In this document: positions 27,291 to 63,929 of the stretch, in pieces
Layout: the number at the start of each line of letters is the position of its first letter
How positions within the stretch are numbered: the first letter of the stretch is position 1
NCBI GenBank assembly: GCA_963971535.1
Contig: OZ020593.1
Span: 21,353,721 to 21,417,720 of the forward strand
DNA from: Notolepis coatsorum
Lineage: Eukaryota > Chordata > Actinopteri > Aulopiformes > Paralepididae
Direction of reading: 5' to 3'
Length of the DNA stretch: 64,000 nt
The notes under the pieces: model-generated
The model's input: only the letters and a program-made list of their open reading frames with translations
The model's database searches: none
Told to the model about the DNA's origin: nothing
Made by a program: the position numbers and the translations under genes

Positions 27291-27682
27291 ATAAATGAAA
27301 TGGTAAATGGACTGCATTTATATAGCGCTTTTATCCAAAGCACTTTACAACTTATGCCTCACGTTCACCCATTCACTCACACACCGACAGCGGAGGCGAC
27401 CATCCAAGGTTCAGTGTCTCGCTCAAGCGCTGCCGGGAGGAGCCGGAATCGAACAGAGAACCTTCCGATTACCAGACGACCGCTCTTACCTCCTGAGCCA
27501 CTGTCGCTCCAATATAATATCTCTGCACTGCTACACCGGTCAATGACTCTCCGTAGATCAGATCTATATTATTATTACACAATAGTAATAATTACCCTGT
27601 AATCTATGTACCGTTATTTGAAGTACTACCTTCTTATTTCCCCCCCTGCGTCATCAAATGTGTATGGAAATACCCTCAAGTT

Positions 27683-29654: not shown

Positions 29655-32600
29655 TCATGAAGCGTTGGAGACATGTGAGAAAGCAGCTGTGATCTTCTCT
29701 CTCAGTCCCGCCATGGAAATCAAGATGGCCTCCTGTGGACGACAAACACTTGAATGAGAACAAGCATGAAAACAGTCCAGACCCACGGCACAAACTAACG
29801 TTCTGCACAGCCAGTTGTGGAACATGCACGTTGTTTGGTTACACTTATGCCTCATCCGGTTGCTAGGCAACCTTTCAAAATTCACACCAACAACTGTAAC
29901 TAGGAGGGATATGAGGACTGTGTATGTGTAACTAGGAGGGATATGAGGACTGTATGTGTAACTAGGAGGGATATGAGGACTGTGTGTGTGTAACTAGGAG
30001 GGATATGAGGACTGTGTGTGTGTGTAACTAGGAGGGATATGAGGACTGTGTATGTGTAACTAGGAGGGTTATGAGGACTGCGTGTGTAACTAGGAGTGAT
30101 ATGAGGACTGTGTGCATGTGTAACTAGGAGTGATATGAGGACTGTGTGTATGTAACTATGAGGGATGAGGACTGTGTATGTGTAACTATGAGGGATGAGG
30201 ACTGTGTATGTGTAACTAGGAGGGATGAGGACTGTGTGTATGTGTAACTAGGAGGGATATGACTGTGTGTATGTGTAACTAGGAGTGATATGAGGACTGT
30301 GTGTATGTGTAACTAGGAGGGATGAGGACTGTGTGTATGTGTAACTAGGAGTGATATGAGGACTGTGTGTATGTGTAACTAGGAGGGATATGAGGACTGT
30401 GTGTATGTGTAACTAGGAGGGATGAGGACTGTGTGTATGTGTAACTAGGAGTGATATGAGGACTGTATGTGTAACTAGGAGTGATATGAGGACTGTGTAT
30501 GTGTAACTAGGAGGGATATGAGGACTGTGTGTGTAACTAGGAGTGATATGAGGACTGTGTATGTGTAACTAGGAGGGATATGAGGACTATGTGTGTGTGT
30601 AACTAGGAGGGATATGAGGACTGTGTGTATGTGTAACTAGGAGGGATATGAGGACTGTGTATGTGTAACTAGAAGTGATATGAGGACTGTGTGTGTAACT
30701 AGGAGTGATATGAGGACTGTGTGTGTAACTAGGAGTGATATGAGGACTGTGTGTGTAACTAGGAGTGATATGAGGACTGTGTATGTGTAACTAGGAGGGA
30801 TATGAGGACTGTGTATGTGTAACTAGGAGGGTTATGAGGACTGTGTGTGTAACTGGGAGGGATATGAGGACTGTGTGTGTGTAACTAGGAGGGATATGAG
30901 GACTGTGTGTATGTGTAACTAGGAGGGATATGAGGACTGTGTGTATGTGTAACTAGGAGGGATATGAGGACTGTGTATGTGTAACTAGGAGGGATATGAG
31001 GACTGTGTGTAACTAGGAGCATATGAATTAACTGCAAATGTAAGGCCTTTTAAGCTAATTATGAATTCCATACGTTTGAATACCCTGTCGAAGTCTTTTA
31101 GAGTAGTTTCCCCCCAAAATACTGAACGTGACTCAACGGACTCTCCCCTCACCTCTGTACGTATGGTCCTGCTGCCCTGAGAGGGGCAGGTGTTGAGGTA
31201 CAGATCAAACAGAGCGCTGGGATCAGTCACGTCCAAGTTCGGGTCGGTATCTACGCTGGCCTCCAGTCCCTGTAGACCTCCAAAGACCACTAGGAGGTGC
31301 CTGAAAAGTGAAGAATAAAGACGTGTGTACATAGTCTCGACGTGCAGGCCACGTACATCTTTCATAGTCCTGGCGTACCAGCGCTATGATCAGCGTGCGC
31401 GCTGAGCCATCATTTCAGTACATGTATGCAGTGGTGGAAAGTAACTACCGTACGTATTTTTTTTTTAACTCAAGTACTGTACTTGAGTATAATATTTTTT
31501 TTGACCTACTTATTCTCCTCCTTTTTCTGTGCTTTTTTCTCCCATCCCAATTTTCCTCTCGTGCCAATTCTCCCTCCCCTGTCCTGATCGTTGCTCGCAT
31601 GTGCCCCCCCACTGGCCGGTTGTAGGGAGGATAGAAGCCTTGCATCACATGTCCCCTCCGATACATGGAGGCAGCCAGTCACTTCTTTTCACCTGACAGC
31701 GCGGACTCTCATTGGCGAGGTGTAACGTGTGGGAGGCTGTCTTTGCTGTGCAGGCGCCCTGACCGACCTGTAGGAGTCGCTGTTTACAACAACCAGACTA
31801 CCACCCATCGACTCCCATCCCGCTGACTCTGCCAATTGAGTCAGTATGATGGCCAGCCCAAGCAGGCGGCAACGCTGACAGCCGGATTCGAGGTACTTGA
31901 GTATCATTTTTAAGTACTTGTACTTTACGGGAGTATCTTAATTTTAGGGAAATGTGTACTTTTACATTGTATTTTTTACTCCACTACATGCATCTCTAAC
32001 CCCATCAGCTACTAGTTACTTTGAAGAGAAAGATTTTGCATAGAAAACATGGCAAGAATTGATTAAGTACTTTCAAATTTGAAGCCTGCCAACTTCAAGA
32101 GTTGTTGAATGTAATCAGAGCAGTATAACTGGACTACATACCACTTTAACCTTTAGAGGTCAACGGTTCGAGGATGGAACCCACTGGAATACACAAACAT
32201 CATGTAGAACACATTCTTTTACTTTCGATACTTAAGTACATTCAATATCAAATACTTCTCTCTTTGTACTTAAGTATGATTTTGAATGGAGGACCTTTAC
32301 TTTTACTAGAGTACTATTTTATCTGGGTCTGGGTATTTCTACTTTTACTTAGGTAAAGGAAATGTGTACTTCTTCCACCACTGTGTGTATGCTAGGTACA
32401 TGAGGACAGAAACATAGAGTTCCACATAGGCTGTCCATGCACCACTCTATGTGGTCTGATGTTACTGCATCTTTTTTAATCGACATGGACCCTAGTGGAC
32501 TCCAGTCCATGTATAATGCTACATCTGGACAATGAAATGGTCTTAAAGGAACGTTATGGGAAATGCGCTTAGTCTTACAGTCTTCTCCAGAGACAAGATT

Positions 32601-35991: not shown

Positions 35992-38900
35992 ACTTTATTT
36001 GTATAGCACCTTTCATACAAGCCCAAAGTGCTTCACGGGAGTAATGTAGACATAAAATAGACATAGGCATAAAATGGCAATAGAATTGGCATAATTATAG
36101 ACAGAGAAATTAGCAGAGAATTGATATTAAAACCTCCTGAAAGAAATTGTAATAGATTTATGACATTGAAATCTATAAAAAGACTATTAGCAGGTTTCTA
36201 ACCAAATAAAAAGCAATGCATAAGAATATACATAAAATGAGCATAAAATAGACAGAATAAAATAGTGCAATAGTGCAGTGCAATAGAATAGCTTTAATTT
36301 ACAGTACAATAATCATAGTGTGGATGATGTAATGAGTCTAAGTAGCAGAGTGTATTAAAAGGCTAAGGTGAAGAGGTAAGATTTTAGCTTACTTTAGTGA
36401 GGAGGAATAATTAAAAAGCACAATATACAATGCTATCACTTTAAAAGAGAGAAAGAAGAAGTGTCAGAAGAGTAGTTCATATTTACCAGCATATTGTAAA
36501 TCCTTATGTTTTGGGAAAAACCACTTGCGTAAATACCTGGTAGAAGGGAAAGATTATCATCAGAACTATATCATAAAAGAAGATGCATCGATTTGATATT
36601 GGGGTCAAAGGTCAGTACTCACTGTGGACATTCTAGGTACTGCAGGATCCTGGCGAGCTGAATACAGGCTTGACCTTTCTTCCCAACACCATTGAACTCT
36701 CCCTCCACGGTCCTAGACATAAGACATAATAAATGTAGTTGCCGTTTTAATAAGTTGGTTTTGAGCCGATAATTATTTATATCACTTGAAGCATTCGTGT
36801 GTATCGGCACGCCCCTTAAAATGATACTTTTCTTGAGTCACTTGTGCACTCAAAATCATATTTAGCTTGATGTCTCGAGGGTGCGTTGGTGAACCAAGTG
36901 TGCCCTTACATGACATCATCTTCCTCTTCGTCAAATATGACGATCTCGTCGACGCAGAACACGGCACACGCCCTGGCTATCTGCCCCGCCAGGTACGTCC
37001 GGAGTTCTGTGGACTGGGCGTTGTCCAGGACGGAGCCGGGCAGGGCCACGCTCACCGTGTACGGCCGACCTGGGAAACACATTGACCCGTTACTCTATTT
37101 CTACACCACACACCGCTGGAAGTGATCCAAGGAGGCGCGTGGGGAAGGCGTGTAGTGGTGGCAGTGAGGTTACCTTTGTTCTGGCTTGGTTGCGGCGCTT
37201 TCTCCTTGGCTTTCTCCTTGGCCTCCTCCTTGGCCTCCTCCTCTAGCTGCTTCTCCTTGTCCAGCTGTTTTATAAACTTGGCCTCTTTAATTTGCTTCTT
37301 AGCCTCTTTCGCTGTCCATCGGGAAGAAACACTGGTTAATTTAGTTAGATAGATAAGATACTTTATTCATCCCCTTTGGGGTACCTTATGTATAATAATA
37401 ATAATAATAATAATAATTCATTTAATTTATATAGCGCTTCTCAATAACCCGAAGTCGCTGACAATAGTCGGGAGCAAAAGTAAAAACAAAGAAACAAAAA
37501 GGAAAGAAACAAAAACAAAGAAACAACAAATCTCTATCTCCAAAGTTTTTAAGCTTGGATGTCGGGACAGTGAGGGAGGCAGTGGAGGAGGACCGGAGGG
37601 AACGAGTGGGGCGGTAGGGAAGAAGGAGATCAGTCAGGTAGGGGGGGGCCAGGCTGTGGAGGGCTTTGAAGGTGAGGAGTAGTGTTTTAAAGTTTATGCT
37701 GTTTTCAACCTTATCTAAATACGGTTCACGTTCTTACTGTTCTTTTTTTTTTATCCACTTTTTCTCCCATTTTCTATATTTTCTCCCATCCCAATTTCGT
37801 ATCATCCAATTCAACCCTCCCCTGTCACGAACGCTGTTTCTTGCCTCCCACAAGCCGGCTGCAATGTGGACTAAGTCATACATAGCACAAGTCCCCTCCG
37901 GTACTTGAGGTAACAGCAGTCACATCTTTTCACCTGCGCAGCTCGATCTCTCAGTGGCGAGGAGTAACGCGTGGGAGGCTCACGCTGCCCCCGACACTTC
38001 CTGATTCTACTGCGCAGGCGCACCAACCGACCTGTAGGAGTCGCTGTCCACAACGCCCGATCCCCACCCATCAGTTTCCCACCCCCTAATACGGCCAATG
38101 TGTATTAGTACGGACGACCAGCTAAACTGAAAGCAAATGTGGAGCGCTGGGCTTGAACAGGCAAGCCCAGCGTCTCCAGATTTTGTGGCGAGCGCCTTGC
38201 CCACTACGCCACGTAGCCGCCACGTTCTTACTGTTCTTTATATCGGCTGCACGTCTTCCTTCAGTGAAACAACATCCAACTCGCCGCTCTTAAGAGTCAA
38301 ATTAGTTCAAATGTTAAAGAAGGAGCAAAGCAATGAGGTGAACAAACAATAAAGTCAGAACTTAGTTAAAAAGCAATGAGGTGAACAAACAATAAAGTCA
38401 GAACTTAAGTTAAAAGATCAATAAATTAAGATAAATTAGCATTATTGCACATTCGCTAGATGCATGGTGATGTGTGTATGATTATGTAGGCTAATATCAT
38501 CATGAATATTGTTTGGGCTCTTTGTAATTTAAAAGGAGGCAATTTGTTTACTTCAGAAATGCGTGTGAATTTGGGTGACAGTTCTAAAACACCTACATAT
38601 TTTCCCCCTTACCCGGCCGGAGTAATATCTATCCATCCAGATGGTCGGAACTCGGATTGTAGTTCTCAAAGCACGAGCAAGAAATCTTTTCAAAGCAATG
38701 TCCCTTATTTCGAGAAATCATGACCCGGTTACTCAAGATAATCCACAGACCTGGTTGTGAGTAGTCTCACCCTCACGTAGAACCATTTTCTACAGAACTA
38801 CAGCCCCACAATAATGAATATAGAAGCCATTCCGCTCCATTGTATTGGAGTGACTGCAGATAGGTTATCTCCAAAAGTAAGTGAATCACACCAACAACAA

Positions 38901-40441: not shown

Positions 40442-40484
40442 AAAGCCAAAGTCAAAGTTTTACATCCTAGTAAATATGAAATAA

Positions 40485-40967
40485 GGGTGGCTAGGTGGTG
40501 TAGTGGGCAAGGCACTCGCCACCAGTGTGGAGACGCTAGGATTCGCGTGTTCGAATCCAGCTCTCCACATTGTTTTTCAGTTTGGCTGGTCGTCCGCAGT
40601 AATACACATTGGCCGTATTACGGGGAGGGAAAACTGAAGGGTGGGGATCGAACGTTGTGAACAAGCGACTCCTACAAGTCGGTTGGTGCGCCTGCGCAGT
40701 AGAATCAGGAAGTGTCGGGGGCAGCGTGAGCCTCCCACGTGTTACTCCTCGACACTGAGAGATCGAGCTGCGCAGGTGAAAAGATGCGACTGCTGTTACC
40801 TCAAGTACCGGAGGGGACTCGTGCTATGTATGACTTAGTCCACATTGCAGCCGGCTTGTGGAAGGCAAGAAACAGCGTTCGTGACAGGGGAGGGTTGAAT
40901 TGGATGATACGAAATTGGGATGGGAGAAAATATGGAAAAATGGGAGAAAAAGTGTATAAAAAAAAAA
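40485..40967 (+). mobile_element. tRNA-headed SINE (type 1)
   Basis: A plus copy with a 16-bp target duplication 'agtaaatatgaaataa' at 40469-40484 and 40968-40983. It is more diverged than the other copies of this subfamily. Confidence 0.9.
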
Positions 40968-40983
40968 AGTAAATATGAAATAA

Positions 40984-45300: not shown

Positions 45301-47231
45301 AGTGGTACACAGAGTTCTGATGGACGGTTTTCAGGTGTTTCAGGATGTGCCCAGATCCGATAGCCCAGCCGACCTAGCAAACAAGATGTAAGCGGTCAAC
45401 CACATGACTCTCTAGAGCAGAAGGCTAATGTAAAACATTGAGTGCTGCTAAAAACATGAATAAAACAATTACCTTCCACCCCGTGGCACTAAAGGTCTTC
45501 CCAGCGCTACCGATAGTGATGGTCCGTTCCCACATGCCAGGAAGGCTGGCTACATGGGAAACACAATCAAACAAGAGCCAAGAGGTAAGCTGAGGTACGT
45601 TCCTTTTTAACGCGTCTACTGAGATGACGACTCCCTTTTGCGGAAGTTTCATTTCATCCGTTTTAACTGTTTTTTTTTTTTGATCCACTTTCTCCCATTT
45701 TCTATATTTTCTCCCATCCCAATTTCGTATCATCCAATTCAACCCTCCCCTGTCACGAACGCTGCTTCTTGCCTCCCACAAACCAGCTGCAATGTGGACT
45801 AAGTCATACATAGCACAAGTCCCCTCCGGTACTTGAGGTAACAGCAGTCGCATCTTTACACCTGCGCAGCTCGATCTCTCAGTGGCGAGGAGTAACGCGT
45901 GGGAGGCTCACGCTGCCCCCGACACTTCCTGATTCTACTGCGCAGGCGCACCAACCGACCTGTAGGAGTCGCTGTCCACAACGCCCGATCCCCACCCATC
46001 AGTTTCCCACCCCCTAATACGGCCAATGTGTATTAGTACGGACGACCAGCTAAACTGAAAGCAATGTGGAGCGCTGGGATCGAACAGGCGATCCCAGCGT
46101 CTCTCAGCATTCGTGGCGAGCGCCTTGCCCACTACGCCACGTAGCCGCCCTCCGTTTTAACTGTTTTAATGTAGAAACCTTTTTTTTTCTTCTTTTTTTA
46201 CATTTGATAAATGTTCTTCAAATGTGATTGTAAAAGTGAGTCACAATTATGTGGTCAAATACTCTGTACTAGGACTTATGCATTGCAGGAACATTATTAT
46301 TTGATCAATATCAATTTAGTTAGCTGTTCAATTAGGCGTGTATGTACAAATGTGTGGGCATATAGTTGTGTACAGTATTCTTAGCTATTTCACATAGTTT
46401 GATTATTGGATATTGGATTATTGGATATTGGAGCTTGTCTTGTGTGTGTAGTGTACTACTGTGTCATGTTTACTTGTAACGCCATGTTATGATGCAAGTA
46501 TTACATCTGTGTATGTGTGTACTAATCCTTTGTTACGTTTACTTATGTTATGTTATGATGCAAGATTGAACCTTGTGTGTTGCGGGGTCGTTGTGCGTGG
46601 GGTGGGGCTCTCGGTGACATGGGAGGTAGCAGGCTTGGCTCAGTGGGGGGGGAGTCTCCTTCCCTCCCCTCTACTGGGCCTGGCCCAATTAATTCAAGGG
46701 ACCCGTGTCGCTGGGGGCCCGGCTCCGCGCATATCGGCCTGGGATATGGGGGAGTTCTACGGGCTTAGCTCAGGGGGGGGGGGGGGGCATCGTTTCCGCG
46801 GTTTGGCCCGGGAGAGTGGGGTCTTGTATGTTGTGGGGTCGTTGTGCGTGGGGTGGTGTGCTTGGTGACATGGGAGGTAGCGGGCTTGGCTCGGTGGGGG
46901 GTGGGGGGGGGGGGGGGGAGTACCACCCCCTCGCTCCTCTACTGAGCCTGGCCCAATTAAATTCAAGGGACCCGTGTCGGGTGGATGGTGGGAGGGGTCC
47001 CTCTTATGGGGGTCTGGGAGGCTGAACGCAGCCGTATTCAAGGAGCCCATGTTGGTGTATTGTTGTGTTATTGATGTCGTTGTAAGTGTTGTCTGGGTGT
47101 TGTGTGTCTGTGTATGTTAATAAAAAAAATTGTTTAAAAAAATAAAATAAAAGATTGAACCTTGACCTTGTGGTTTCCCTCCAACAGGTGGGTGATGATT
47201 GATGAACGGTTTCAAGTACTACTACCCCTAT

Positions 47232-47326
<95 letters not shown>

Positions 47327-47806
47327 ATACTACTACTACTACTACTAATAATGTCATTCTGCATCTGTGTGCATTTTTCAATGTAATTGAATCTGTTCTC
47401 GGTCCTCACCTATCTTCACATGCTTGGCTCCATCGTATGTCAGCCACTCATATACCTCATCACTGAAGCAGACCACGTCATGCTTGATACACAGGTCAGC
47501 AATCATCTGCAGCTCTTCAGTCTTGTACACCTGTGCAAGACACGGACGGACGTGTAAAACTGGTTCACAGAGACACACACTGACGTGTTGGGACTTGGAC
47601 GAAAGAAAGTCTAAAACAGTAGTTCTTGATCTACATTTATATTATACAGACAAACTCTGGTGAAACAAACCAAAAGCTTAATCAAATTATTATTAGCTGA
47701 CGATGTGAAATGCAAAGCCTTCACTGAACACCAAAGAAGGCTAGCAAACACAACAAGAAACCTTTGTATAGAATTTACAAAAGTATAAAAGTAATAATTT
47801 AGTTTG

Positions 47807-47894: not shown

Positions 47895-50800
47895 ACTTTA
47901 TTTGTATAGCACCTTTCATTGCATCCCAAAGTGCTTCACAGCAGTGATGTAGACACACAATAGACATAGGCATAAAATGAGCATATAATTGCCATAATTA
48001 TAGGCAGGCATAAACTGAGTAGAGAATTTACAAAATAAAAGCAATGCATGAAGTGTAGACCGAATAAAAGCAGTGCAATAATCATAACAATAGACATAAA
48101 ATGAGCATAAAATAGATAGAATAAAATAGTGCAACAGTGCAATAAAATAGCTCTAATTTACAGTACAATAATCATAGTGTGGATATAATGAATCTAAGTA
48201 GCAGAGTGTATTAAAAGGCTATACGGTGAAGAGGTTATGTTTTCACTGCTGACTTTTGAAACGATCTCAAGGCACATGACGGCACTCACTCCATGGCAAC
48301 TGGTTGAGGACCACTATAGTCTAAAACACACTGGCAGACGTCTGACCTTTCCTAATGGGTTGTTGGGAGTGTTGATGACGATGACTTTTGTGCGTGGGGT
48401 GAATTTACTGGCCAGCTCCTCGGGGCAAAGCACCCAGTCCCCGCTGGAGAGCGCCCCGCTGCCCCCCACCTTCTGGAAGCAGCCCAACAGGGGATACAAT
48501 CAGCCACATGTATGAACTAAGACCATAGAATGAACAATACATTATTCTATTTATATGACTGAGACCGTACGATTCACACTTTATCAGTCAGTATCGTAGA
48601 AGAGACAACAGCTATGTAAACAAACACATATTTATCTGCAGCAATGCATTTATAGCCAAAAGATAAATACATCAACAACAAATTATAACTGGTATTATTA
48701 ACTTTTCTCACTGATACGTTTTTTTCTGCACCAGTTCTTTAACCCTTTCACTGCGACAATACGGAAGGTTAACCCTTTCAATGGCACATGACAAAGGGTT
48801 AGAACCCTTTCACTATACCACACTACAGAAGGTTAACCCTTTTACTATCACACTACAGACGGTTGTAGTGTGATAGTAAAAGGTTAACCTTCTGTAGTGT
48901 GGTAGTGAAAGGGTTAGGAGAATCAATCCCAGAAACAGAGTCAAAATGATCAAGCTTTATTGACAACGCCACCAAAGTCCAGCAACCAGGAGACTATATA
49001 GCATGCTGGGAATTCCATTTTGTCATTTGAACCCTTTCACTGCCGCACTACCAAACGGTTAACCCTTTCACTGCGACAATACACAGAATGTTAAACCTTT
49101 CACTGCCACACAGCAGCAGGTTAGTGTGATGGTAAAGGGTTAACCTTCTGTAGTGTGGCAGTGAAAGGGTTAAACCATGCAGTGATGCTGGTGATGTAGG
49201 TGTAGGTTGGTGACTACACCTCTGTTGCTCTATTCAAGGAGGATACACTTTGATAACTCGGAAGGAAAGAGAAGGGGGGTGAACACTCACTGGCCTGAGA
49301 GGCACATAGACAGCCTTCCCCCCGGCCATTTTCACCATTGGCTGGTAGCAGTCAAAGAAGGGTTCAACAATTATGACCTGAAAAACAAACTGCTGTTAGA
49401 TTTAATTTTATTATTATATATATATTTATTTATATACACAAAGCCTTTGTTTACGTTTAAAAAAAAGAAATTTACAAAACATTTTTATACACATGAGAAA
49501 AAGACACGCAAAAACAGTTATGTATTATGTATTTATTTATTATTGGGTTGAGTTCATAACCAACCATTCTTGGCCTGTAGTCTGGTCACTATATAGGCAA
49601 TTTTCTCAAAGTCAAATTAATTTCACTTTCAATGTGTTACTTATTGTAAAATAAAAGGGATAAAGTCTTCACAACTTGCTTGAATGCTCAAACTGTAGGT
49701 AATTACCTTCACAGACGGAAGCCTTCACAAGTAAAATATTTCACAGTTAAGACTGTGTCCTTATTCTTGTAGATGGATCCTAGTTTGAATTTAGCTTCTC
49801 AATGTGAAATGTGAATGTCATCTAGTCTTTAATCCAAATGCCTAGATATTTCTATGCTGGCTATATGGACTGAACTCTAATTTTTTTTTTATCCACTTTT
49901 TCTCCCATTTTCTATATTTTCTCCCATCCCAATTTCGTATCGTCCAATTCAACCCGGTACTTGAGGTAACAGCAGTCGCATCTTTTCACCTGCGCAGCTC
50001 GATCTCTCAGTGGCGAGGAGTAACGCGTGGGAGGCTCACGCTGCCCCCGACACTTCCTGATTCTACTGCGCAGGCGCACCAACCGACCTGTAGGAGTCGC
50101 TGTCCACAACGCCCGATCCCCACCCATCAGTTTCCCACCCCCTAATACGGCCAATGTGTATTAGTACGGATGACCAGCTAAACTGAAAGCAATGTGGAGC
50201 GCTGGGATCGAACAGGCGATCCCAGCGTCTCCGCATTTGTGGCGAGCGCCTTGCCCACTACGCCACGTAGCCGCCCTCGGACTGAACTCTAATTTAAGGG
50301 ATTGGATCTCAAACCATTGTGAGCATTTATGATGAATTGAAAATGGTGGACCCTGATGTAAACAAGACGAAAGTCTTTCTCTGGTCTGCATCCCGTTAAC
50401 AATTGTGTGTATTGAGCTGTACTGTATTGTACCCATTCTACAATCTGTTAATACAATTTTCAATCAATCAATCAAACAGCATATTTCTTATTGTTCTGAA
50501 TAGTTCTAAGGATCACAAGTGAATATAATTAATATGTTAGGTAGGGATGCACAATTAATCAAAGTTTTATCAAAATCGCAATATGGCCTTGTGCAATTTC
50601 TAAAAGGAGGCTGCGATATTTGATACAGGTCAAATATGTGTCAAAATAGCATTCTAAATTATGTATTGTGGTGTTGCAGAGAAACAGGTCTACAAATCAT
50701 TACACTTTTTAAGGAAATGTTTTTGTTTGGTACAGACCCCTGCAAGAATCATGAGCATTTTAATACTTGACTGGGGTGGTCTTGCAATTGATATTGAAAC

Positions 50801-51658
50801 AGTGGAGATACTTACCTCATCTCCCTCATCAACCAGAGCTTGGAAGGTACAGAAGAGAGCCTGGTAAGCTCCAACTGTAACAAGAATGTCCTCCAGAGGA
50901 TCAATCTCTCGTCCCACAATCCTACTAAAGAATTTTGCCAGAATCTTCACAAGAGGGGGGTGGCCCTGGAGAGGAACAGTTAAATGGTGAGACGAGGCTC
51001 TCCCTCATACAAAGCAAACTGTGCTTCTCATTGTATGTAGTGATCAAATGTATTTTTCTTACAAAAGCACGGGTATACTGGTGCATTTCACACCCCCCGC
51101 TCACGGCTTTGCAGAAAGCCTCTTGGAGGTAACTTGGAGGGGAGAAATCAGGAAAACCCTGTCCGAGATTTACTGCTTTGTAGTCGGCCGCCAGTTGTGT
51201 GAACTCAACCCTGTTGATTGATAATAATCCATGATCAAGCAGTTCCAAGCAGCAACTCCACCCCCCCCCCCCCCCCCACCTCCTCCAATGTAGTTTATTC
51301 ATTAATGTATACTATTTTTCTTTTTACTCTTTTTGTATCAAACAGTACTGTATTTGTAAATCTGGTATGTCATAAATGTATAGATGTAGCAGTACTGTAT
51401 CTGTATGTCATGTATGTCATATGTTATGAATGATGAATTGAAAATGGGGGACCACCCTGATGTAAACAAGACGAAAGTCTTTCTCTGGTCTGCATCCCCT
51501 TAACAATTGTGTGTATTGTATTGTATTATTGTACCCATTCTACAATCTGTTAATACAATTTTCAATCAATCAATCAAAACTTGTTTTCAATACCACCTGA
51601 CTTACCATATATTTTTGTCGACACCATCTAATCTGCGTGCATGAAGTTGGCGTGACAT
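42327..51658 (-). CDS. kyat1: Kynurenine aminotransferase 1 / cysteine conjugate beta-lyase, 12 exons
   Basis: PLP-dependent class I/II aminotransferase that transaminates kynurenine to kynurenic acid, uses glutamine and other amino acids, and cleaves cysteine S-conjugates. Exons in gene order: 51658-51606, 51210-51063, 50965-50816, 49377-49291, 48472-48347, 47530-47410, 45549-45473, 45373-45284, 43822-43636, 42988-42912, 42732-42646 and 42386-42327. All phases agree and give 420 residues (human KYAT1 422). Key motifs: [19 protein letters not shown] (Asn184), SDEVYEW (Asp212, Tyr215), [16 protein letters not shown] with Lys246 as the PLP lysine, and YIRFCF for the substrate carboxylate arginine. 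The start [18 protein letters not shown] has no mitochondrial presequence, so the product should be cytosolic. The exon 5 donor (gtcaga) is weak. KYAT3 is the main alternative; adjacency to spout1 favours kyat1. Confidence 0.95.
43866..44260 (-). mobile_element. LINE-type end, minus orientation (kyat1 intron 8)
   Basis: 'gatattcctttattgatccc' starts the element, followed by a G run and 'gtacaggtagtagaggacat'. It is a typical fish retroposon 3' end in the inverse orientation. No reading frame is seen. Confidence 0.55.
45674..46150 (-). mobile_element. tRNA-headed SINE (type 1)
   Basis: A minus copy with a 17-bp target duplication 'tccgttttaactgtttt' at 45657-45673 and 46151-46167. It lies in kyat1 intron 6. 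Confidence 0.9.
46575..47155 (+). repeat. G-rich tandem duplication with poly-A-like end
   Basis: Two copies about 249 bp apart start near 46582 and 46831 with 'ggggtcgttgtgcgtggggt' and share 'tggcccaattaa' and 'caagggacccgtgtcg'. Long G runs occur at 46642, 46771 and 46895-46918. The right end 'tgttaataaaaaaaattg' looks like a retroposon 3' end. It may be the end of a LINE with internal repeats. Confidence 0.6.
47218..47346. repeat. TAC (CTA) trinucleotide array
   Basis: About 40 nearly perfect CTA units lie 64 bp from kyat1 exon 6. The poly-Ser, poly-Leu and poly-Val frames across it are artefacts. Confidence 0.95.
47811..48235 (-). mobile_element. TTA-tailed repeat with long TAA array
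   Basis: About 27 TAA units (47811-47893) are followed by the inverse of the TTA-tailed repeat ('cactttatttgtatagcacc'). It lies in kyat1 intron 5. Confidence 0.85.
48735..49172. repeat. Two foldback TTAACCC arrays
   Basis: Arrays at 48735-48917 and 49025-49172 are made of the same roughly 30-bp unit as the array at 18340-18566. Each ends in inverted units. They flank a 107-bp unrelated segment. Location: kyat1 intron 4. Confidence 0.8.
49884..50278 (-). mobile_element. tRNA-headed SINE (type 1), internally deleted
   Basis: A minus copy with a 17-bp target duplication 'ggactgaactctaattt' at 49867-49883 and 50279-50295. About 80 bp of the body between 'aattcaaccc' and 'ggtacttgag' is missing compared with its sisters. 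Confidence 0.9.
50318..50475 (+). mobile_element. CAAT-tailed element
   Basis: A copy of the repeat described at 1127-1262, ending in (CAAT)n. It lies in kyat1 intron 3. A longer copy at 51275-51575 lies in intron 1. Confidence 0.8.
51275..51575 (+). mobile_element. CAAT-tailed element (long copy)
   Basis: It includes the upstream part 'cagtactgtatttgtaaatc' and ends 'caatcaatcaatcaa'. It fills most of kyat1 intron 1. Confidence 0.8.
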
Positions 51659-53636: not shown

Positions 53637-56600
53637 TCACAGCGTGACCTTCTTCAGGTCCTCCGGCAGCACTCGGCCCCTCTTCCTCGCCCTGTCCTTC
53701 CTCTTCTCCGTCTTGTTGTCCTTGGACTTCTTGATGTTCCGGCGCCGCTTCTCCTGCCGGCGGTGCATCTTATCCGCCACGGTCTCGGAGCGCTCGTCCC
53801 ACTGCTTCTTCCTCTGGGTGCGCATCTTCTCCTTCCTCTTCAGCGAGGCGCGCAGCATCACCTCGTCGTCTTTGATCTTGATGCCCTCGGCCTTGTAGAG
53901 CACGTTGGTCCACTTCATCTTGTCCTCCATCTCCTTGGCCTTGCCCTCGTCCGTCTCGCGCAGCTTCTCCAGCTTGGCGTTGCGCGCCTCCACGCGGGTC
54001 AGCAGCTGCTTGTAGTTCTTGCCCGTGAGCGGCGTCAGTTTGCCCTTCACCCTCTTCTTCTTCTCCAGTTTCTTCTGGATCTTGTTCACGTAGCCGTCTT
54101 CCACCGTCTCCACCGTGTTGAAGATGATGGCCGTCTCGTCTCTCTTCTTGAGGGGGACAGGGGCCGGCGCTTCCTCTTCTTCCTGTTTGACCTCCTGCTC
54201 TTCTTTGGCAGCTTCGTCCTCCGCCAGCTTCTTCAAGCGGAATTCCTTTCTCTTCCTCTTCTTACGCTCCCTTTCCACCTTGCGCTTCGCTCGCTTCGCC
54301 TGAACCTCTTCCGATAATGGGTTCTTTGGGGTTCCCTGCTGAAAAAGGAACATCGTATACTGAGTTACATGTGTCATTATGGTGGTTATAAGGATAAATG
54401 TGTAACATGGATCAAGGCAACTGGTCTCCTGGCCTTTACAGACAGAGGTGGTGCTGTTTTTAGATGAGACACACCTCATAGACTTGCAACTGGTGAACGG
54501 TTCTGATCTGAATCTTAATAGTAAACATTGTTAGGACTATCTGACTCTTAATAAACACTGTGAGGACTTGCTATTTTTTTTTTTTAAACTTTGACCAGTC
54601 AGCTGGTTCTTTTAGCGTTTATCGCTTTTTCATCGCATTTATACTTGGTCAAGTTCGACCGACAGAAGCAGGCTGAAAGGGTTCAGATGGGGGGGGAAGA
54701 CACTCTGGGAAAGGCACGGCTGCCGTCCGGGATTCGAACGCGCTCAGCCCCAGATCCGTGACGAGCACGGTTGTCCACGGCGCTGAAATAGCACTCGCGG
54801 TACGTGGTGAGCTACTGGAGCTCCCCTAGAGGACTTACTATTTAATAATAAACACTGTTAAGACTATCTGACTCTTGATAATAAACACTGTGAGGACTAC
54901 GACTCTTAATAATAAACTATCTGACTCTTACTAATAACCACTGTTAAGACTATCTGACTCTTGATAATAAACACTGTGAGGACTACGACTCTTAATAATA
55001 AACTATCTGACTCTTACTAATAACCACTGTTAGGACTATCTGACTCTTAATAATAAACACTGCACGGACTCTGGTACAGTGTGTTACTACGGTTTTGGAC
55101 CATGTATACCATTATCACTATTACAACTGTCTGGCTGAATCCTGCCACTCACTACTGTTCACTACTACTACGGTCATCACTATTATCATTATTACTTTGC
55201 GCTTTGTTCTACAGTATGTTCTATTATTATTATTACTACCTATCCTACCTGTACCCCAGCAACAACACATTGTAAATAGCCTACCTACTATAACACCACC
55301 CAACTATAAATGTAATTGAATTGTCTCATCTTTTGTTGAAGACAGTAACAGCCACAGGTCCTTCTTCAAATTACTCACCCATTGCTTTTTATTCAGGGGC
55401 TTTGACACATTCATTTATCAATTATATTATTATAAAAAGTCTACTGCAGTCTGTACAGAGTCTACAGTTTTTACAGAGCTACTGCAGTCTGTACAGAGCC
55501 ACTGCAGTCTATACACTGCCTACCCTTCCATAAGCTTTGAAACCATTGGCAAACATCCATACCTTCCCTCTCGACTCTTCGATCTTCTCATGAAGTCTCT
55601 GGCGTAGAACATCTACTGCGGAGAAGGTTGTTTCAGCCTTTCCCCCTTCGACACAAAACATACAAATCATACATTAGGATAGAGTAACAGTGTATTTTTA
55701 AAAACAGTACGAGATGTGTACGATACGATGGTTTAAAACAAATGCGTTATCAATTGAGTAAAAACGAGACAGCCATGACCCATTACAGTGCATCAAAACA
55801 AATATGTTATTGATCTGGGCTAACTGTGAGAGATTAGTAAATGTACCTTTAGAGTTCTGTGTTTTGTTCTGTGTTTTAGCTACTGTTGTTCCGTTGGTAA
55901 TCTTTGCTTTGGGGGCAGCATTCTGCTCTGCTGTACCAGGTCCTTTCGATGCTGCAGGACTGGGTGACGGTTTCTGGTGCTTCTGCGGGTGTTTGGGAGC
56001 CGGTTTGTTCTTATTGAGGCCCTTTCCTGCGGCCTGTTTCAGTTTGCGTTTGCTCTTCTTTGAAAGACCAGTATCAATACATCCACTCCTAAAAGGAACT
56101 TCACATAATGATGACAGATAGAAAAAAAACATGTAACTTTTAGAGTCTCTTACAGAACTTACATTAGATTATATTTTAAAATGTTAAATGTATTATCATA
56201 CAGCACAGGTACAGTACACCGAAAAGAGGTTTGGCATCCAACCAGAGTGCAAATGTAACAGTAAAGTGCTAATAGTGGTAATCAGATGTATGTGCAGAGT
56301 TGTACCCCCCCCCCCTCCAATGTAGTTCCCCCCTCCACCCCTCCTACCTACCAACCTCCTCCAATGTACAGTTTCTTCGTCAAATGTATATACTCTTTTT
56401 TTAGACTCTTCTTGTATCACAAACAGTACTGTATTTGTAAATCTGGTATGTCATAAATGTAGCAGTACTGTCTATCTGTATGTCGTGTGTGTAAATCATA
56501 TATATGTTATGATGAATTGAAAATGGGGGACCCTGATGTAAACAAGACGAAAGTCTTTCTCTGGTCTGCATCCCCCTAACAATTGTGTGTATTGAGCTGT

Positions 56601-56861
56601 ACTGGTACAACTGTACTCATTCTGCAATCTGTTAATAAAATGTTCAATCAATCAATCAGTTGTAGTATACAGTGATACAGGTATAAAGACACTACTAATG
56701 GTAGTAAGTCATACTGTCCAGCATTTGACTACATGCACACACATTAGACACTACATCATCCACTTACCAAATGATTTCTTCCACGGTTCTTGGTTTTGTT
56801 TAGCACAGACCTTAGTGCCTAGTTTCTGAAAATATGAATCCTTGGCAGCGAGACTTTCCAT
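53637..56861 (-). CDS. surf6: Surfeit locus protein 6, intact copy A (four exons)
   Basis: Nucleolar ribosome-assembly protein of the SURF6/Rrp14 family, which acts in pre-rRNA processing. Exons in gene order: 56861-56768, 56098-55847, 55645-55563 and 54338-53637, giving 376 residues (human 361). The start reads MESLAAKDSYFQKLG, close to the human start. Exon 3 has FSAVDVLRQRLHEKIEESRG. Exon 4 is very Lys/Arg/Glu-rich and holds the conserved C-terminal domain: KGKLTPLTGKNYKQLL, KWTNVLYKAEGIKIKDDE and the ending RVLPEDLKKVTL. The exon 2 acceptor at 56098 (gtgaag) was chosen because it alone keeps the phase. Everything except the last 128 codons is repeated in copy B. It is divergent from a surf1 first exon with a 297-bp gap. 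Confidence 0.95.
54576..54828 (-). mobile_element. Copy-A-specific SINE insertion
   Basis: This insert is absent from the matching site in copy B (about 59094-59107). The duplicated target is 'gaggacttgctatt' / 'gaggacttactatt'. It starts with poly-T and has a box-B-like 'gggattcgaacgcg' in inverse sense, so it is a minus-oriented tRNA-type SINE. It lies in surf6 intron 3. Confidence 0.85.
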
Positions 56862-57158
56862 CTCGAGGAAGAAATGGAGCTCCAACTACCAGCTAACGTG
56901 AGGTCAAGCTGTTTCCAACCAGCTAGCTGGTAAATAAGACTTCTACACAAAGAAAATATATCAAATAAGAACAAGGCTAAAACATAACACGCAGAATAAG
57001 TAATCCCAACATGCACCACGTGTGTAGACAACGGGGCGGGGCTTAGACGTGAAGGTTTGAACCGGAAGTAGTAGCACCCTAAATATTCCCCCTTTTATTA
57101 AAATAATGTGAGTCGCTGCCCTGTCCGTCAAACTGCTCCACTCAAATTTTCATTTATT
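56862..57158. promoter_or_regulatory. Bidirectional surf6/surf1 promoter, copy A
   Basis: The 297 bp between divergent start codons hold an E-box CACGTG (57017-57022), a GC box 'ggggcggggc' (57033-57042) and an ETS-type 'accggaagt' (57061-57069). There is no TATA box. ETS control is known for the mammalian Surf1/Surf2 bidirectional promoter; its role here is inferred. Confidence 0.7.
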
Positions 57159-57221
57159 ATGACCACTCTGAAGTTCATGTTGTCATGCTCCACCAAGGCC
57201 CTCTACATAATAAGAAATAAC
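57159..57221 (+). CDS. surf1: surf1 first coding exon, copy A (distal, possibly alternative)
   Basis: 21 codons ([20 protein letters not shown] + N) end in a good donor 'gtaagt', identical to copy B at 61894-61956. No surf1 exon 2 lies within copy A, so a transcript from here could only reach the exon at 63643. That would give the same protein through a 6.4-kb first intron. It may instead be a dead relic. Confidence 0.7.
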
Positions 57222-57298
57222 GTAAGTTTTTATTGATCACATTTTACAATACAGGTTGTTGTGAATGACATGAATGAATGAATGAAAACTTTATTTAA

Positions 57299-58348
57299 GG
57301 GGAGACACTACAGGTGAATAGGGTAAAAAAGTTAACTAATAGATATCACAATGAAACTTCCCCAGTTGATTACTTATATTAAGACAAGACTTTTTTGTAT
57401 TACAAGTTTTCTGAAATTGTAAGTTTAAATATGCAAATGAGGCATTATGTACTTAAATATGCACTAATTTGCATATAATTCCAGGACAGAAATCTGAACA
57501 TTGGATAAAGCCATTTTCAAAATTATAGTTTAATTTTGTTGACATATTAGAGCCAAAGGTTATTACAGAGGGGATTTTGGATATCTCTTTTTATCACTCC
57601 ATAAATCAGAAAATACTCCATTCAGTCCATTTTTATGGTAAAATTCCATATTTTGCCATGTTTTTAGGAATGAAATGTGATATAAATCAGGGTATGAATG
57701 CGATATCAACAAACCCTTCTGTAAATACCTTCAGAACATAGATATGAATAGAACTGGAAGGTTTGGTGTATGTGAGTGCTACTGAAGTGGAGATTTCTGG
57801 CTCAGAGTATGAGGAAAAACTCTTAAAACTCATTTTTGGGAAAACGCCTTCAAAGTTCTGTATTGTAAAATGCTATACTTTTTTTTTAAACAGATATTTA
57901 CAAACACAATATCTAATCAAACCATTAGTAATAGACAACCTAAACACATGCCTGATAACTGAATAATAATAATAATGATGTTATTGAACTGAACAGAACT
58001 ACACACAGGCTACACACAGTGTAGTACCCCCTAATAGGCAAAAAATATTTAAATAGATATCACTATGAAACTTTCCCAGTTTGTTATGTACATATAAACT
58101 AAGAAAAAATATATTGCAAGTTTTCTGAAATTTATGTTTATATATGCAAATGAGGCACTTCCCCATTAAATATGTGCACATTTATGGATGCAATAAGGCA
58201 AAATGAAGTAAAATAAACAATTAAATGTGTGTTATTGACGTTTTATTGTCACTAGTTTCATAGAAGACATGTTTAGGAAGCAAAATATAACAAAATCTCA
58301 AAATCAACAAAAAAAGTATATTTGCCTATTCACCTGCAGTGTCTCGCC
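57299..58348. mobile_element. piggyBac-like non-autonomous element with exact TTAA duplication
   Basis: The ends are 'ggggagacactacaggtgaa' and the inverse of 'ttcacctgcagtgtctcgcc'. TTAA flanks both sides (57295-57298 and 58349-58352). The insertion is inside a CAAT-tailed element; other copies of that element show the uninterrupted sequence with one TTAA. Inside is a diverged direct repeat of about 140 bp (about 57335-57480 and 58045-58180). There is no transposase. Confidence 0.9.
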
Positions 58349-58548
58349 TTAACAGATTGCAGAATGGGTACAATACAGTACGGCTCAATACACACAATTG
58401 TTAAGGGGATGCAGACCAGAGAAAGACGTTTGACAGACTTCGAGAGGACAGGTTTAAAGGGATATTTCACTTCAGTATGTACAGTTTCTTCCCCTTCGGA
58501 TGTATATATTTTTTATGATCTCTTTGTACGTCATAAATGTCATAAATG

Positions 58549-61546
58549 TCATGATGCCGTGAGCGGCGTCAGTTTGCCCTTCACCCTCTTCTTCTTCTCC
58601 AGTTTCTTCTGGATCTTGTTCACGTACCCGTCCTCCACCGTCTCCACCGTGTTGAAGATGATGGCCGTCTCGTCTCTCTTCTTGAGGGGGACAGGGGCCG
58701 GCGCTTCCTCTTCTTCCTGTTTGACCTCCTGCTCTTCTTTGGCAGCTTCGTCCTCCGCCAGCTTCTTCAAGCGGAATTCTTTTCTCTTCCTCTTCTTACG
58801 CTCCCTTTCCACCTTGCGCTTCGCTCGCTTCGCCTGAACCTCTTCCGATAATGGGTTCTTTGGGGTTCCCTGCTGGAAACGGAACATTGTATACTGAGTT
58901 ACATGTGTCATTATGGTGGTTATAAGGATAAATGTGTAACATGGATCAAGGCAACTGGTCTCCTGGCCTTTACAGACAGAGGTGGTGCCGTTTTTAGACG
59001 AGACGCACCTCATAGACTTGCAACTGGTGAACTGTTCTGATCTGAATCTTAATAGTAAACATTGTTAGGACTATCTGACTCTTAATAAACACTGTGAGGA
59101 CTTACCATCTAATAATAAACACTGTTAAGACTATCTGACTCTTGATAATAAACACTGTGAGGACTATGACTCTTAATAATAAAACTATCTGACTCTTACT
59201 AATAAACACTGTTTGACTATCTGATTCTTAATAATAAACACTGCACTGACTCTGGTGCAGTGTGTTACTACGGTTTTGGACCATGTATACCATCATCACT
59301 ATTACTACTGTCTGGCTGAATCCTGCCACTCACTACTACTACTGTCATCACTATTATCATTATTACTTTGCGCTTTGTTCTACAGTATGCAGTTCTATTA
59401 TTATTATTACTACCCATCCTACCTGTACCCCAGCAACACCACATTGTAAATAGTCTACCTACTATAACACCACCCAACTATAAATGTAATTGAATCGTCT
59501 CATCTTTTGTTGAAGACAGTAACAGCCACAGGTCCTTCTTCAAATTACTCACCCATTGCTTTTTATTCAGGGGCTTTGACACATTTATTTATCAATTATA
59601 TTATTATAAAAAGTCTACTGCAGTCTGTACAGATAGTCTACAGTTCTACAGTTTTTACAGAGCTATTGCAGTCTGTACAGAGCCACTGCAGTCTATACAC
59701 TGCCTACCCTTCCATAAGCTTTGAAACCATTGGCAAACATCCATACCTTCCCTCTCGACTCTTCGATCTTCTCATGAAGTCTCTGGCGTAGAACATCTAC
59801 TGCGGAGAAGGTCGTTTCAGCCTTTCCCCCTTCGACACAAAACATACAAATTATACATTAGGATAGAGTAACAGTGTATTTTTAAAAACAGTACGAGATG
59901 TGTACGATACGATGGTTTAAAACAAATGCGTTATCAATTGAGTAAAAACGAGACAGCCATGACCCATTACAGTGCATGACCCTCTTTGCGCCGCCCCTGT
60001 GCCTCAAATAGATCCGCTATCAGCTCTATCTTCAATCTTCCAAATGTTCAGTTGCTATCGCTATTAGCTCTATCTTTAATCTTTCAAAATGTTCAGTTGC
60101 TATTGCATGCACTCATCTGTGTTTCACTACACACTTGAGTGCATGCTTATCAACTGCTAGTCTGCAACACTACTATCACCGACATCTAAGAAGGGAGATC
60201 CCCCCTTGAATGGCCCTTCTAAGGTTTCTCTCCTCCACACTGCCTGTGGAGCTTTTCCCCCTATTGTTAGGTTTTAGTGAGTTTTTCCTTACCTTCGCGT
60301 GGGGTATGTCTGGGAGTGCTTGCATTCTTTCATTTATTTGCATTCATCTTAAATGTTTTGGACCTTATGGTGTTCTTGTTCTGTTCTTGACTTATTGTTA
60401 TGTTTTCTTCTTGACTTGTTTAAAGAAGACCTGTACGGCCCATGGGGAAATTAACGTGTGTTGTCGGGCCTTATAAATAAATTTGATTTGATTTGATCAA
60501 AACAAATAGATTATTGATCTGGGCTAACGGTGAGAGATTAGTAAATGTACCTTTAGAGTTCTGTGTTTTAGCTACTGTTGTTCCGTTGGTAATCTTTGCT
60601 TTGGGGGCAGCATTCTGCTCTGCTGTACCAGGTCCTTTCGATGCTGCAGGACTGGGTGACGGTTTCTGGTGCTTCTGCGGGTGTTTGGGAGCCGGTTTGT
60701 TCTTATTGAGGCCCTTTCCTGCGGCCTGTTTCAGTTTGCGTTTGCTCTTCTTTGAAAGACCAGTATCAATACATCCACTCCTAAAAGGAACTTCACATGA
60801 TGATGACAGATAGAAAAAAAACATGTAACTTTTAGAGTCTCTTACAGAACTTACATTAGATTATATTTTAAAATGTTAAATGTATTATCATACAGCACAG
60901 GTACAGTACACCGAAAAGAGGTTTGGCATCCAACCAGAGTGCAAATATAACAGTAAAGTGCTAATAGTGGTAATCAGATGTGCAGAGTTGTACCCCCCCC
61001 CCCCCCCCACCTGCAATGTAGTTCCCCCCTCCACCCCTCCTACCTACCAACCTCCTCCAATGTACAGTTTCTTCGTCAAATGTATATACTCTTTTTTAGA
61101 CTCTTCTTGTATCACAAACAGTACTGTATTTGTAAATCTGGTATGTCATAAATGTATAGATGTAGCAGTACTGTCTATCTGTATGTCGTGTGTGTCATAA
61201 ATGTTATGATGAATTGAAAATGGGGGACCCTGATGTAAACAAGACGAAAGTCTTTCTCTGGTCTGCATCCCCCTAACAATTGTGTGTATTGAGCTGTACT
61301 GTACCCATTCTGCAATCTGTTAATAAAATGTTCAATCAATCAATCAATTGTAGTATACAGTGATACAGGTATAAAGACACTACTAATGGTAGTAAGTCAT
61401 ACTGTCCAGCATTTGACTACATGCACACACATTAGACACTACATCCACTTACCAAATGATTTCTTCCACGGTTCTTGATTTTGTTTAGCACAGACCTTAC
61501 TGCCTAGCTTTTGAAAATATGAATCCTTGGCAGCGAGACTTTCCAT
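58549..61546 (-). pseudogene. surf6: surf6 copy B, C-terminally truncated
   Basis: Exons in gene order: 61546-61453, 60790-60551, 59829-59747 and 58872 onward. All splice sites and frames are kept. Exon 2 lacks 12 bp in frame compared with copy A. Exon 4 runs to KGKLTPLT, after which the junction supplies two new codons and a stop (58549), giving about 246 residues. The lost part is the conserved C-terminal SURF6 domain. Its promoter copy looks intact, so transcription is possible. I call it a pseudogene because the family-defining domain is missing, but a stable N-terminal product cannot be ruled out. Confidence 0.85.
59977..60496 (+). mobile_element. Copy-B-specific LINE 3' end insertion
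   Basis: This 520-bp insert is absent from copy A, where 'cattacagtgca' joins directly to 'tcaaaacaaat' (about 55780-55802). It ends 'aataaatttgatttgattt' + 'ga', a LINE-like tail. It lies in surf6-B intron 2. Confidence 0.85.
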
Positions 61547-61893
61547 CTCGAGGAAGAAACGGAGCTCCAACTCCAACTACCAGGTCGGACAGCTAACGCG
61601 AGGTCACGCTGTTTCAAACCAGCTAGCTGGTGAATAAGACTTCTACACAAAGCAAATATACCAAATAAGAAAAAAAAAAACTAAAACATAATAACACGCA
61701 GAATGACAATGAATCGGTACAAAATAATATAGGTAATCCCAACATGCACCACGTGTGTAGAGACGACGGGGCGGGGCTTAGACGTGAAGGTTTGAACCGG
61801 AAGTAGTAGCACCCTAAATATTCCCCCTTTTATTAAAATAATGTGAGTCGCTGCCCTGTCCGTCAAATTGCTCCACTCAAATTTTCATTTATT
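61547..61893. promoter_or_regulatory. Bidirectional surf6-B/surf1 promoter, copy B
   Basis: The E-box CACGTG (61750-61755), GC box (61768-61777) and ETS-type 'accggaagt' (61796-61804) are all kept at the same spacing as in copy A. Small insertions near the surf6 side make it 347 bp long. It is the nearest promoter to the body of surf1. Confidence 0.7.
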
Positions 61894-63929
61894 ATGACCA
61901 CTCTGAAGTTCATGTTGTCATGCTCCACCAAGGCCCTCTACATAATAAGAAATAACGTAAGTTTTTATTGATCACATTTTACAATACATACATAGGTTGT
62001 TGTGAATGACAGACTTCGAGAGGACAGGTTTAAAGGGATATTTCACTTCAGTATGTACAGTTTCTTCCCCTTCGGATGTATATATTTTTTATGATCTCTT
62101 TTTACTACACAGTTCTGTATATCTGTTTGTCGTGTATGTCATAAATGTCATGATGAATTGAAAATGGGGGACCCCGATGTAAACAAGACGAAAGTCTTTT
62201 TCTGGTCTGCATCCTCTTAGCAGTTTGTTTTGTATATTGAGCTGTACTGTATTGTACCCATTCTGCAATCTGTTAATAAAGTTTTCAATCAATCAATCAA
62301 TTCCGAATTGAAAATGGGGGACCCTGATGTAAACCAGACAAACGTCTTTCTCTGGTCTGCATCCCCTTAACAATTGTGTGTATTGAGCCGTACTGTATTG
62401 TACCCATTTTGCAATCTGTTAAATAAAGTTTTCATTCATTCATCCCAGTGTCAAGCTCCTCATTCACTTCCATTAATTTCGAGGACCATGTCTAAATAGC
62501 ATATACTTCTGAAGTTTAAACAAACTATACAGCAATATTATACAATATCTTTTTCTCAGTCAAATGTTCTTTTTAGCTAATGTTGCCATTTTCAAAATAT
62601 CAGTAAAGGAACTATTTCTCACTTGAGGTTTAGTTTGACCAACTGTTGACCTGCCCTCCCTTTTACAGAATGTTTAGAATCTTTCTTTCAGCAAGGCATC
62701 ACATAACCATGGGTAACCACTCCCATCCACATCCCATGCAGGGAAAAGATACACGGTACATTCAAAGCTTCAAAGCTTGCCCGGATCTGCTTTTATTTTT
62801 CAAAGGTAGTAAATCTGTAAAGACACACCAAATACCAAAATAAACATGTGCCTTTGACTCAGAATTATCAGTTTTATTGAAATATGCACAGCAGTAGCGT
62901 CAGGTGGCGTAGCGGAGATTGCGTTCGTCACCAACCCCGGAGCTGTTCGCCTGTTCGAATCCAGCTCACAGCTCCGGGGTTGTCACCAGCTTGGCTGGCC
63001 GTTCACACTAATACAATTGGCAGTATTAGAGGGTGGGAGAAGCTGGCGGGGTGGGTCCGGGTTGTTGTAAACAGTGACTCCTACAGTTCGGTCGGGGCGC
63101 CTGCTAAGCGCGGATGGGACCTGAGTGGGATAGTGTGATCCTTCCACACGCTACGCCCTCTCGGAGAATATCCGCGCTGCCAGGTGAAAAGAAGCGGTTG
63201 ATTGGCTGGACGTGTGTCGGAGGAAGCACGTGATAGCCTCCACTCTCCCAGATGATCTGACTGTGGGGGGTAAGTGCGCAGCGACCAGGAAGGGGATTGG
63301 GAATTGGCATAACGACTAACATTGGGATGGGAGAAAATCGGAAGAAAAATGGAGGGGGAAAAAGATAAAAAAAAAAAAAAAAAAATATGATGTTTAGACT
63401 AGGTCCCCAAAATGAATGGAAGTGAATGTGGAGCCTGACACCTGGGAGGAATGGTGGTGTTGACAGCGGACAATGAGGAACAGTGGTCACTAGCTTACTT
63501 GTAAATGGACGTACATAGAGGTACGTTTTTTGGAGCTGTTTTAGTCGAACTACTAACGTTAACTAACTACTGAATATAGCAACTTAGTTATCTATCTTGC
63601 CACAAAACATTGTCTGTATTAAACGATCTGTTGTTTTTTCAGACACATGTGATTTACATCAAGAGGACTCTCCTTCTCCCCAGAGTGCCTCTCCCCAGAC
63701 GTGCAGATGGTATAACTAGATGATGTTCAACATAATGATGGCATTACTGCATTCAGCTGTCCTTTCTTCAGATTCACACCTGCTTTCCTGAATGTCTCTA
63801 GGCAAGTTCAACCCCTTTTGGCGGCGGTCAAGTTCCACGGTTACCGCTGTGGCGAAAGGAGAGGACGCCTTCCTGAAATGGCTCCTGCTTCTGATTCCTG
63901 TCACCACATTTGGCCTGGGGACATGGCAG
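61894..63929 (+). CDS. surf1: Surfeit locus protein 1, cytochrome c oxidase assembly factor (5' part)
   Basis: Inner mitochondrial membrane protein needed to assemble cytochrome c oxidase. Exons seen: 61894-61956, 63643-63709 and 63802-63929, phases matching; the rest lies beyond the window. The N-terminus is rich in Arg, Lys and hydroxyl residues and lacks acidic residues for about 40 residues, as expected for a mitochondrial presequence. The third exon reads [20 protein letters not shown] and then the first membrane segment [18 protein letters not shown], nearly the same as human SURF1 at this point. The final donor (gtatga) is at 63930. The exon 1 choice is duplicated (see 57159-57221). 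It is head-to-head with surf6 copy B. Confidence 0.9.
62120..62442 (+). mobile_element. Two CAAT-tailed element ends in tandem (surf1 intron 1)
   Basis: One copy ends at about 62302 in (CAAT)n, and a second starts immediately ('gaattgaaaatgggggaccc') and ends at 62442 in (CATT)n. The right duplication breakpoint at 62155 lies inside the first. Confidence 0.75.
62898..63385 (+). mobile_element. tRNA-headed SINE (type 1), 'aggtggcgtagcgg' subfamily
   Basis: Box A is 'ggtggcgtagcgg' and box B 'tgttcgaatcc'. It shares the body with the copy at 20325-20822 and ends in poly-A at about 63367-63385. It lies in surf1 intron 1, about 260 bp before exon 2. Confidence 0.85.

Follow-up and report, generated by a model that had tools for sequence, protein, structure and literature searches.

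A probable local tandem duplication at the surf6/surf1 bidirectional promoter of Notolepis coatsorum, which would give each gene a near and a far promoter copy

What becomes of two genes that share one bidirectional promoter when that promoter is copied along with the first exons on either side? The surfeit cluster of Notolepis coatsorum raises this question in a 64,000-nucleotide stretch of DNA (OZ020593.1:21353721-21417720, on a contig of 134 Mb; hereafter the window) of the 3.42 Gb assembly GCA_963971535.1, where surf6 and surf1 stand head to head beside a promoter that is present twice. An earlier, sequence-only reading of the window had proposed that a direct duplication separated the two partners, with surf6 left to one promoter copy (promoter A), surf1 left to the other (promoter B), and each gene open to control of its own. 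Our analysis indicates that a real partial tandem duplication, local and fairly recent, probably took place here, in a surfeit cluster with repeated duplications, and that each gene would now have one near and one far promoter. The surroundings examined were 304 kb, made up of 100 kb before the window, the window itself, and 140 kb after it. All coordinates are window positions, and extended coordinates continue past the window end; duplicate copies, insertions, and promoters are given without strand.

The duplicated unit was found twice, head to tail. Copy A occupies 54023-58556 and copy B occupies 58557-62155, both counted with the insertions particular to them. The unit has its start (54023) within surf6 exon 4 and its end (62155) in a dispersed repeat that lies downstream of surf1 exon 1. 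In each copy the shared promoter is flanked by surf1 exon 1 on one side and, on the other, by surf6 exons 1 to 3 and a portion of surf6 exon 4. Two colinear direct copies in this order constitute a tandem partial duplication in the assembly, and because the colinear similarity between them extends over 3 kb, it is far beyond chance. The novel junction (58556/58557) joins the unit end to the unit start inside surf6 exon 4, and comparison of its flanks revealed no microhomology, no bases common to both parents, no gap, and no N. Both outer limits (54023 and 62155), both copies, and the junction were thus recovered as the sequence-only reading had placed them when we aligned the copies and inspected the junction.

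The copies differ by several insertions. Two are found only in copy A: one of ∼1,160 bp (57271-58430), which by eye resembles the inverted 3′ end of a long interspersed nuclear element (LINE) with a nested, TTAA-flanked element, and one of ∼267 bp (54563-54829), which by eye resembles a short interspersed nuclear element (SINE) and has GAGGACTT flanking both sides. The copy alignment placed an insertion of ∼520 bp (59977-60496) only in copy B. At the place of each copy-specific insertion, the other copy is uninterrupted. Smaller insertions and deletions were also present; of these, one of 85 bp within a tandem repeat was the largest. A dispersed repeat that has a (TCAA)n-type tail and looks by eye like a LINE 3′ end occurs at 50310-50476, 51339-51578, 56420-56660, 61115-61350, and 62131-62447, and one end of the duplication unit falls within it.

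We consider it likely that this duplication is real and not a product of assembly. The alternative, which we regard as unlikely, is that a single locus is represented twice, its two alleles having been placed one after the other as A and B during assembly. Alleles of fish can differ by ∼2% and by insertions, so the divergence and the insertion differences between A and B could be allelic, and one end of the junction does sit in a dispersed repeat. However, the window has no N and the join has no sequence common to its two sides, unlike what is seen where contigs have been merged through an overlap or scaffolded. The only N runs in the 304 kb were at OZ020593.1:21535221-21540220 and 21545464-21545663, the first of which starts 117.5 kb past the window end. 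Moreover, no spare copy was found elsewhere in the assembly by genome-wide matching, which scored the best candidates of a first-pass look (this applies to all assembly copy counts given here). Two assembly matches apiece were obtained for the stretch of promoter and surf1 exon 1 and for that of surf6 exon 2, all of them at this locus. Single matches were obtained for 381 bp of the surf6 3′ exon and for surf1 exon 7, and a profile search of the assembly returned one match to the SURF6 domain.

The neighborhood of the duplication also bears on whether it is an artefact. Partial duplications of rpl7a and surf1 lie within 30 kb, with pair identities of ∼75 to 97%. Partial rpl7a exon pieces are repeated on the minus strand at extended coordinates 71550-89290, where one rpl7a exon word occurs at 5 sites; we take these pieces to be rpl7a from sequence words familiar to us. 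A second, decayed piece of surf1 includes an exon-5-like stretch at ∼81.3 kb, and positions 82189-83019 are ∼75.6% like 68908-69726 (extended coordinates); this sequence points to an older duplication of the later surf1 exons. The lower-identity duplications (∼75%) are too divergent to be alleles, which argues against two alleles placed in tandem during assembly. Taken with the other partial copies of rpl7a and surf1, these older events favor a real duplication over a haplotype mis-join, without proving it. The same region (71.5-89.3 kb; 71550-89290), past the window, holds a SNORD array with 22 Rfam matches at gathering scores, 14 to SNORD36 and 8 to SNORD24. These small nucleolar RNA copies have multiplied together with the rpl7a host-gene pieces.

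How far the two copies have diverged was determined from an alignment in four pieces, in which 10/547, 25/873, 28/1,444, and 4/126 letters differed. Summed, 67 of 2,990 letters differed, or 59 of 2,908 once 82 letters of an ambiguously aligning tandem-repeat stretch were dropped. The differences comprised 37/1,818 in introns and other sequence, 8/730 in surf6 coding sequence, 0/63 in the coding part of surf1 exon 1, and 2/135 in the promoter core with the surf1 5′ untranslated region (UTR). The most divergent stretch was the surf6 5′ UTR and upstream side (12/162), at 56862-57023 of copy A, where the copies also differ by insertions or deletions. On the surf1 side, a single letter at 57133/61868 (C in A, T in B) distinguishes the two 5′ ends. 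Compared with the introns, this surf6 promoter side was enriched in differences (Fisher P = 0.0004), and the densest 200-letter window of differences had a permutation P of 0.001; in both cases the stretch was picked after inspection. A gene-conversion tract was not supported, as the longest identical run was 269 letters (permutation P = 0.17).

Within the surf6 coding sequence, 7 differences between A and B were synonymous and 1 was nonsynonymous over 243 codons, a count made without the final codons of B or the 12 nucleotides by which exon 2A is longer. The probability of at most one nonsynonymous change in eight was 0.004 to 0.012 if only copy B were drifting, the range reflecting the transition bias assumed, and 0.00015 to 0.0006 if both copies were drifting. 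Given this bias, a freely drifting, dead surf6 B is poorly supported. The almost entirely synonymous differences also speak for two alleles placed in tandem during assembly, and the bias fits constraint on B, conversion, the fusion of old alleles, or an artefact alike, so that the count does not separate them. Fusion of alleles is a variant that is compatible with the duplication proposed here: unequal exchange would have joined two already diverged alleles, and most differences would be older than the duplication. It would account both for the synonymous bias, with no constraint on the truncated surf6 B, and for the uneven density of differences. Nevertheless, an exchange between repeats would draw on homology, which the junction lacks, and we find this variant rather unlikely.

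The duplication left one complete surf6. According to the gene models, surf6 A lies on the minus strand and consists of four coding exons encoding 376 residues: exon 1A (coding part, 56768-56861), exon 2A (55847-56098), exon 3A (55563-55645), and exon 4A with the stop codon (53637-54338), the 3′ part of which (53637-54022) is outside the duplicated unit. Its protein matches Surfeit locus protein 6 of PDB 8fkp, which we take to be human, over residues 1-374 (E = 1.6e-72), and passes the Pfam model SURF6 (PF04935) with 142 bits against a cut-off of 23.1 (positions 2-195 of 196). The surf6 3′ end, with its SURF6 domain, is present only in copy A. Also on the minus strand, surf6 B has exon 1B (coding part, 61453-61546), exon 2B (60551-60790), which is shorter than exon 2A by an in-frame 12 nucleotides, exon 3B (59747-59829), and an exon 4B truncated by the junction (58549-58872), where an in-frame stop follows two new residues (AS). 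The predicted product of surf6 B is 246 residues long and falls below the SURF6 (PF04935) cut-off, with 21.0 bits against 23.1 (positions 2-86 of 196).

Exons 1B to 3B still have their splice sites. The reading frame is preserved between exon 3B and exon 4A, and splicing of the two would yield a full-length SURF6, with one substitution and four residues setting it apart from the copy A protein. In the acceptor of exon 4B, but not in that of 4A, a G interrupts the pyrimidine tract, which could favor skipping of exon 4B. A minus-strand AATAAA word at 58242, with T-rich sequence after it, is located inside the A-only insertion (57271-58430), ∼0.3 kb past the stop of surf6 B. Words of the AATAAA/ATTAAA type are common in AT-rich DNA, and those described here are candidate polyadenylation [poly(A)] signals. 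In humans, the N-terminal part of SURF6 (S6N, residues 1-182) is described as binding NPM1 and phase-separating with it (PMC6265330). The predicted surf6 B product spans the matching part and more, as placed by an alignment made with the copy A protein. It is conceivable, though very improbable, that the locus has two interlaced promoters whose outward transcripts overlap by several kilobases (up to ∼4.7 kb, or ∼3.5 kb should those of surf6 B stop near 58.2 kb) and also encodes a working truncated SURF6 (246 residues, N-terminal, and S6N-like), ended by the inserted poly(A) signal and with its frame under selection.

The surf1 gene is on the plus strand and has nine exons. The gene models place the coding part of exon 1A at 57159-57221 and that of exon 1B at 61894-61956, followed by exon 2 (63643-63709) and exon 3 (63802-63929); exons 4 to 9 lie past the window, to extended coordinate 69147, and the gene is otherwise intact. 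Joined, the nine exons encode 305 residues and score 170.7 bits for Pfam SURF1 (PF02104), against a cut-off of 23.4 (positions 1-205 of 205). An exon-by-exon profile search of the assembly gave no match to the SURF1 domain, whereas the joined model does match, and the miss is most likely due to the exons being scored apart. Exons 1A and 1B are identical in 63 of 63 letters and have the same GTAAGT donor (GTAAGTTT at exon 1A). A transcript from promoter A can therefore splice to exon 2 (63643) and encode the same protein, and such a transcript can skip exon 1B, which has promoter sequence in front of it where an internal exon would have an acceptor.

What, then, does each promoter retain? Promoter A with the 5′ UTRs spans 56862-57158 and promoter B with the 5′ UTRs spans 61547-61893. 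The motifs CACGTG, GGGGCGGGG, and CCGGAAGT were found in both; we presume that they are sites for USF/MYC, SP1, and ETS factors. Measured between start codons, surf6 and surf1 are 297 bp apart in A and 347 bp apart in B, so the genes are head to head, with start codons less than 1 kb apart, in both copies.

The gene models also bear out the geometry first described, in which promoter A adjoins the complete surf6 and promoter B adjoins the surf1 start closest to the remainder of surf1. That geometry is the part of the proposed separation that holds. Promoter A has kept surf1 exon 1, promoter B has kept surf6 exons 1 to 3, and the cores differ by only 2 of 135 letters. Judged from these features, promoters A and B are a near-identical, interlaced pair and not a separated pair, and full decoupling of surf6 from surf1 was rejected, as neither promoter has lost the first exon of either gene and their cores are nearly alike. 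Through proximity, surf6 may make more use of A and surf1 more use of B. Because the promoter cores are near-identical, however, the same signals are expected to reach both genes even if each uses its nearest promoter. The original proposal, in which the duplication uncoupled the pair and control by A (for surf6) and B (for surf1) is diverging, draws on the geometry, on candidate poly(A) signals along the far paths, and on the greater divergence of the surf6 promoter side, in the stretch picked after inspection. Against it stand the first exons and donors kept at both promoters, and the cores, 2 of 135 letters apart and with the three motifs in common, leave no visible sequence basis for divergent control on the surf1 side. 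We therefore consider it improbable.

The account that we prefer is a partial tandem duplication that gave each gene a near and a far promoter. A unit with one end in surf6 exon 4 and the other in the repeat beyond surf1 exon 1 would have been doubled, and with it the bidirectional promoter and the 5′ exons of both genes. For surf6, promoter A would be near and promoter B far; for surf1, promoter B would be near and promoter A far. The near promoter would be expected to dominate for each gene because a far transcript would have to cross long introns and candidate poly(A) signals. Between surf1 exons 1A and 2, which are separated by a 6.4-kb intron, there are 16 plus-strand AATAAA/ATTAAA words, and candidate signals of this kind would favor use of the nearest promoter. 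Between A and B, two transcription units would overlap head to head in opposite directions. From surf6 B, mostly the truncated 246-residue protein or no product at all would be expected. The locus is explicable without new regulation.

It is important to note that several observations weigh against this account. Divergence of ∼2%, mainly synonymous in coding sequence, is equally expected of two alleles. Coding sequence and introns did not differ significantly in divergence between the copies (8/730 versus 37/1,818; Fisher P = 0.13), and a signal of constraint was accordingly not found by this comparison. Direct repeats of at least 0.5 kb also occur elsewhere in the 304 kb, outside the surfeit cluster; these may be transposons. 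Several of them are spaced 1.1 to 5.4 kb apart and one is spaced 28.9 kb apart, and there are short-period arrays besides. Lastly, the assignment of promoters to genes is deduced from sequence.

Comparison with known systems places the event among familiar ones. The order of genes in a zebrafish table is surf5, rpl7a, surf1, surf6l, and ccbl1, with one surf1 and one surf6l (PMC2654907, Table 3). This list fits a single-copy starting state, although it is a list of genes and not a comparison of sequences. As in the zebrafish cluster, surf6 lies beside surf1 with rpl7a beyond; in contrast to it, the 5′ halves of surf6 and surf1 are doubled here, and the zebrafish list is without orientation (PMC2654907). 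The human RCCX module, as described in PMC6769589, is a partial tandem duplication beside the head-to-head pair DXO-STK19 (RP1). There too, after a local tandem duplication beside such a pair, one gene (RP1) is intact and a second copy (RP2) is partial. In that module RP2 is found upstream of every C4 gene that follows, and the description makes no mention of a doubled shared promoter (PMC6769589); here the promoter and both first exons are doubled. Human head-to-head gene pairs with alternative promoters are reported to have overlapping 5′ ends (PMC8076222). Those pairs resemble surf6 and surf1 in having genes on opposite strands, alternative starts, and transcripts able to overlap, but tandem copies of one promoter, as in Notolepis coatsorum, are not described for them (PMC8076222).

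No doubled bidirectional promoter was found among the titles and abstract openings of the open-licence papers listed in literature searches for one, which is weak evidence of rarity. The kind of event is already known, being a fairly ordinary local partial tandem duplication. If real, it provides a clean example from nature in which a bidirectional promoter was doubled along with both partners' first exons while a complete copy of each gene is kept, and it marks the surfeit cluster of Notolepis coatsorum as a site of repeated local duplication. RNA from this species could reveal the outcome of promoter doubling, whether separate control, competition between near and far promoters, or nothing.

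Other features were observed in the window. A minisatellite-like tandem array of ∼1.1 kb is located at 29895-31026. A repeat of ∼490 bp, SINE-like by eye and with pairs ∼67 to 99% identical, occurs in both orientations at 14617-15595, 20317-20826, 24763-25250, 27682-28168, and 31492-31891 and, further along the window and again in both orientations, at 37729-38235, 40481-40968, 45659-46165, 49954-50278, and 62899-63389. Three exon-like frames were scanned against Pfam. One of them, at 47378-47641, scored 18.8 for Aminotran_1_2, below the cut-off of 19.7, and the other two had no Pfam match. The minus-strand frames at 47378-47641 and 50690-51311 resemble what we take to be kyat1/ccbl1, and such frames fit ccbl1 as the neighbor in zebrafish.

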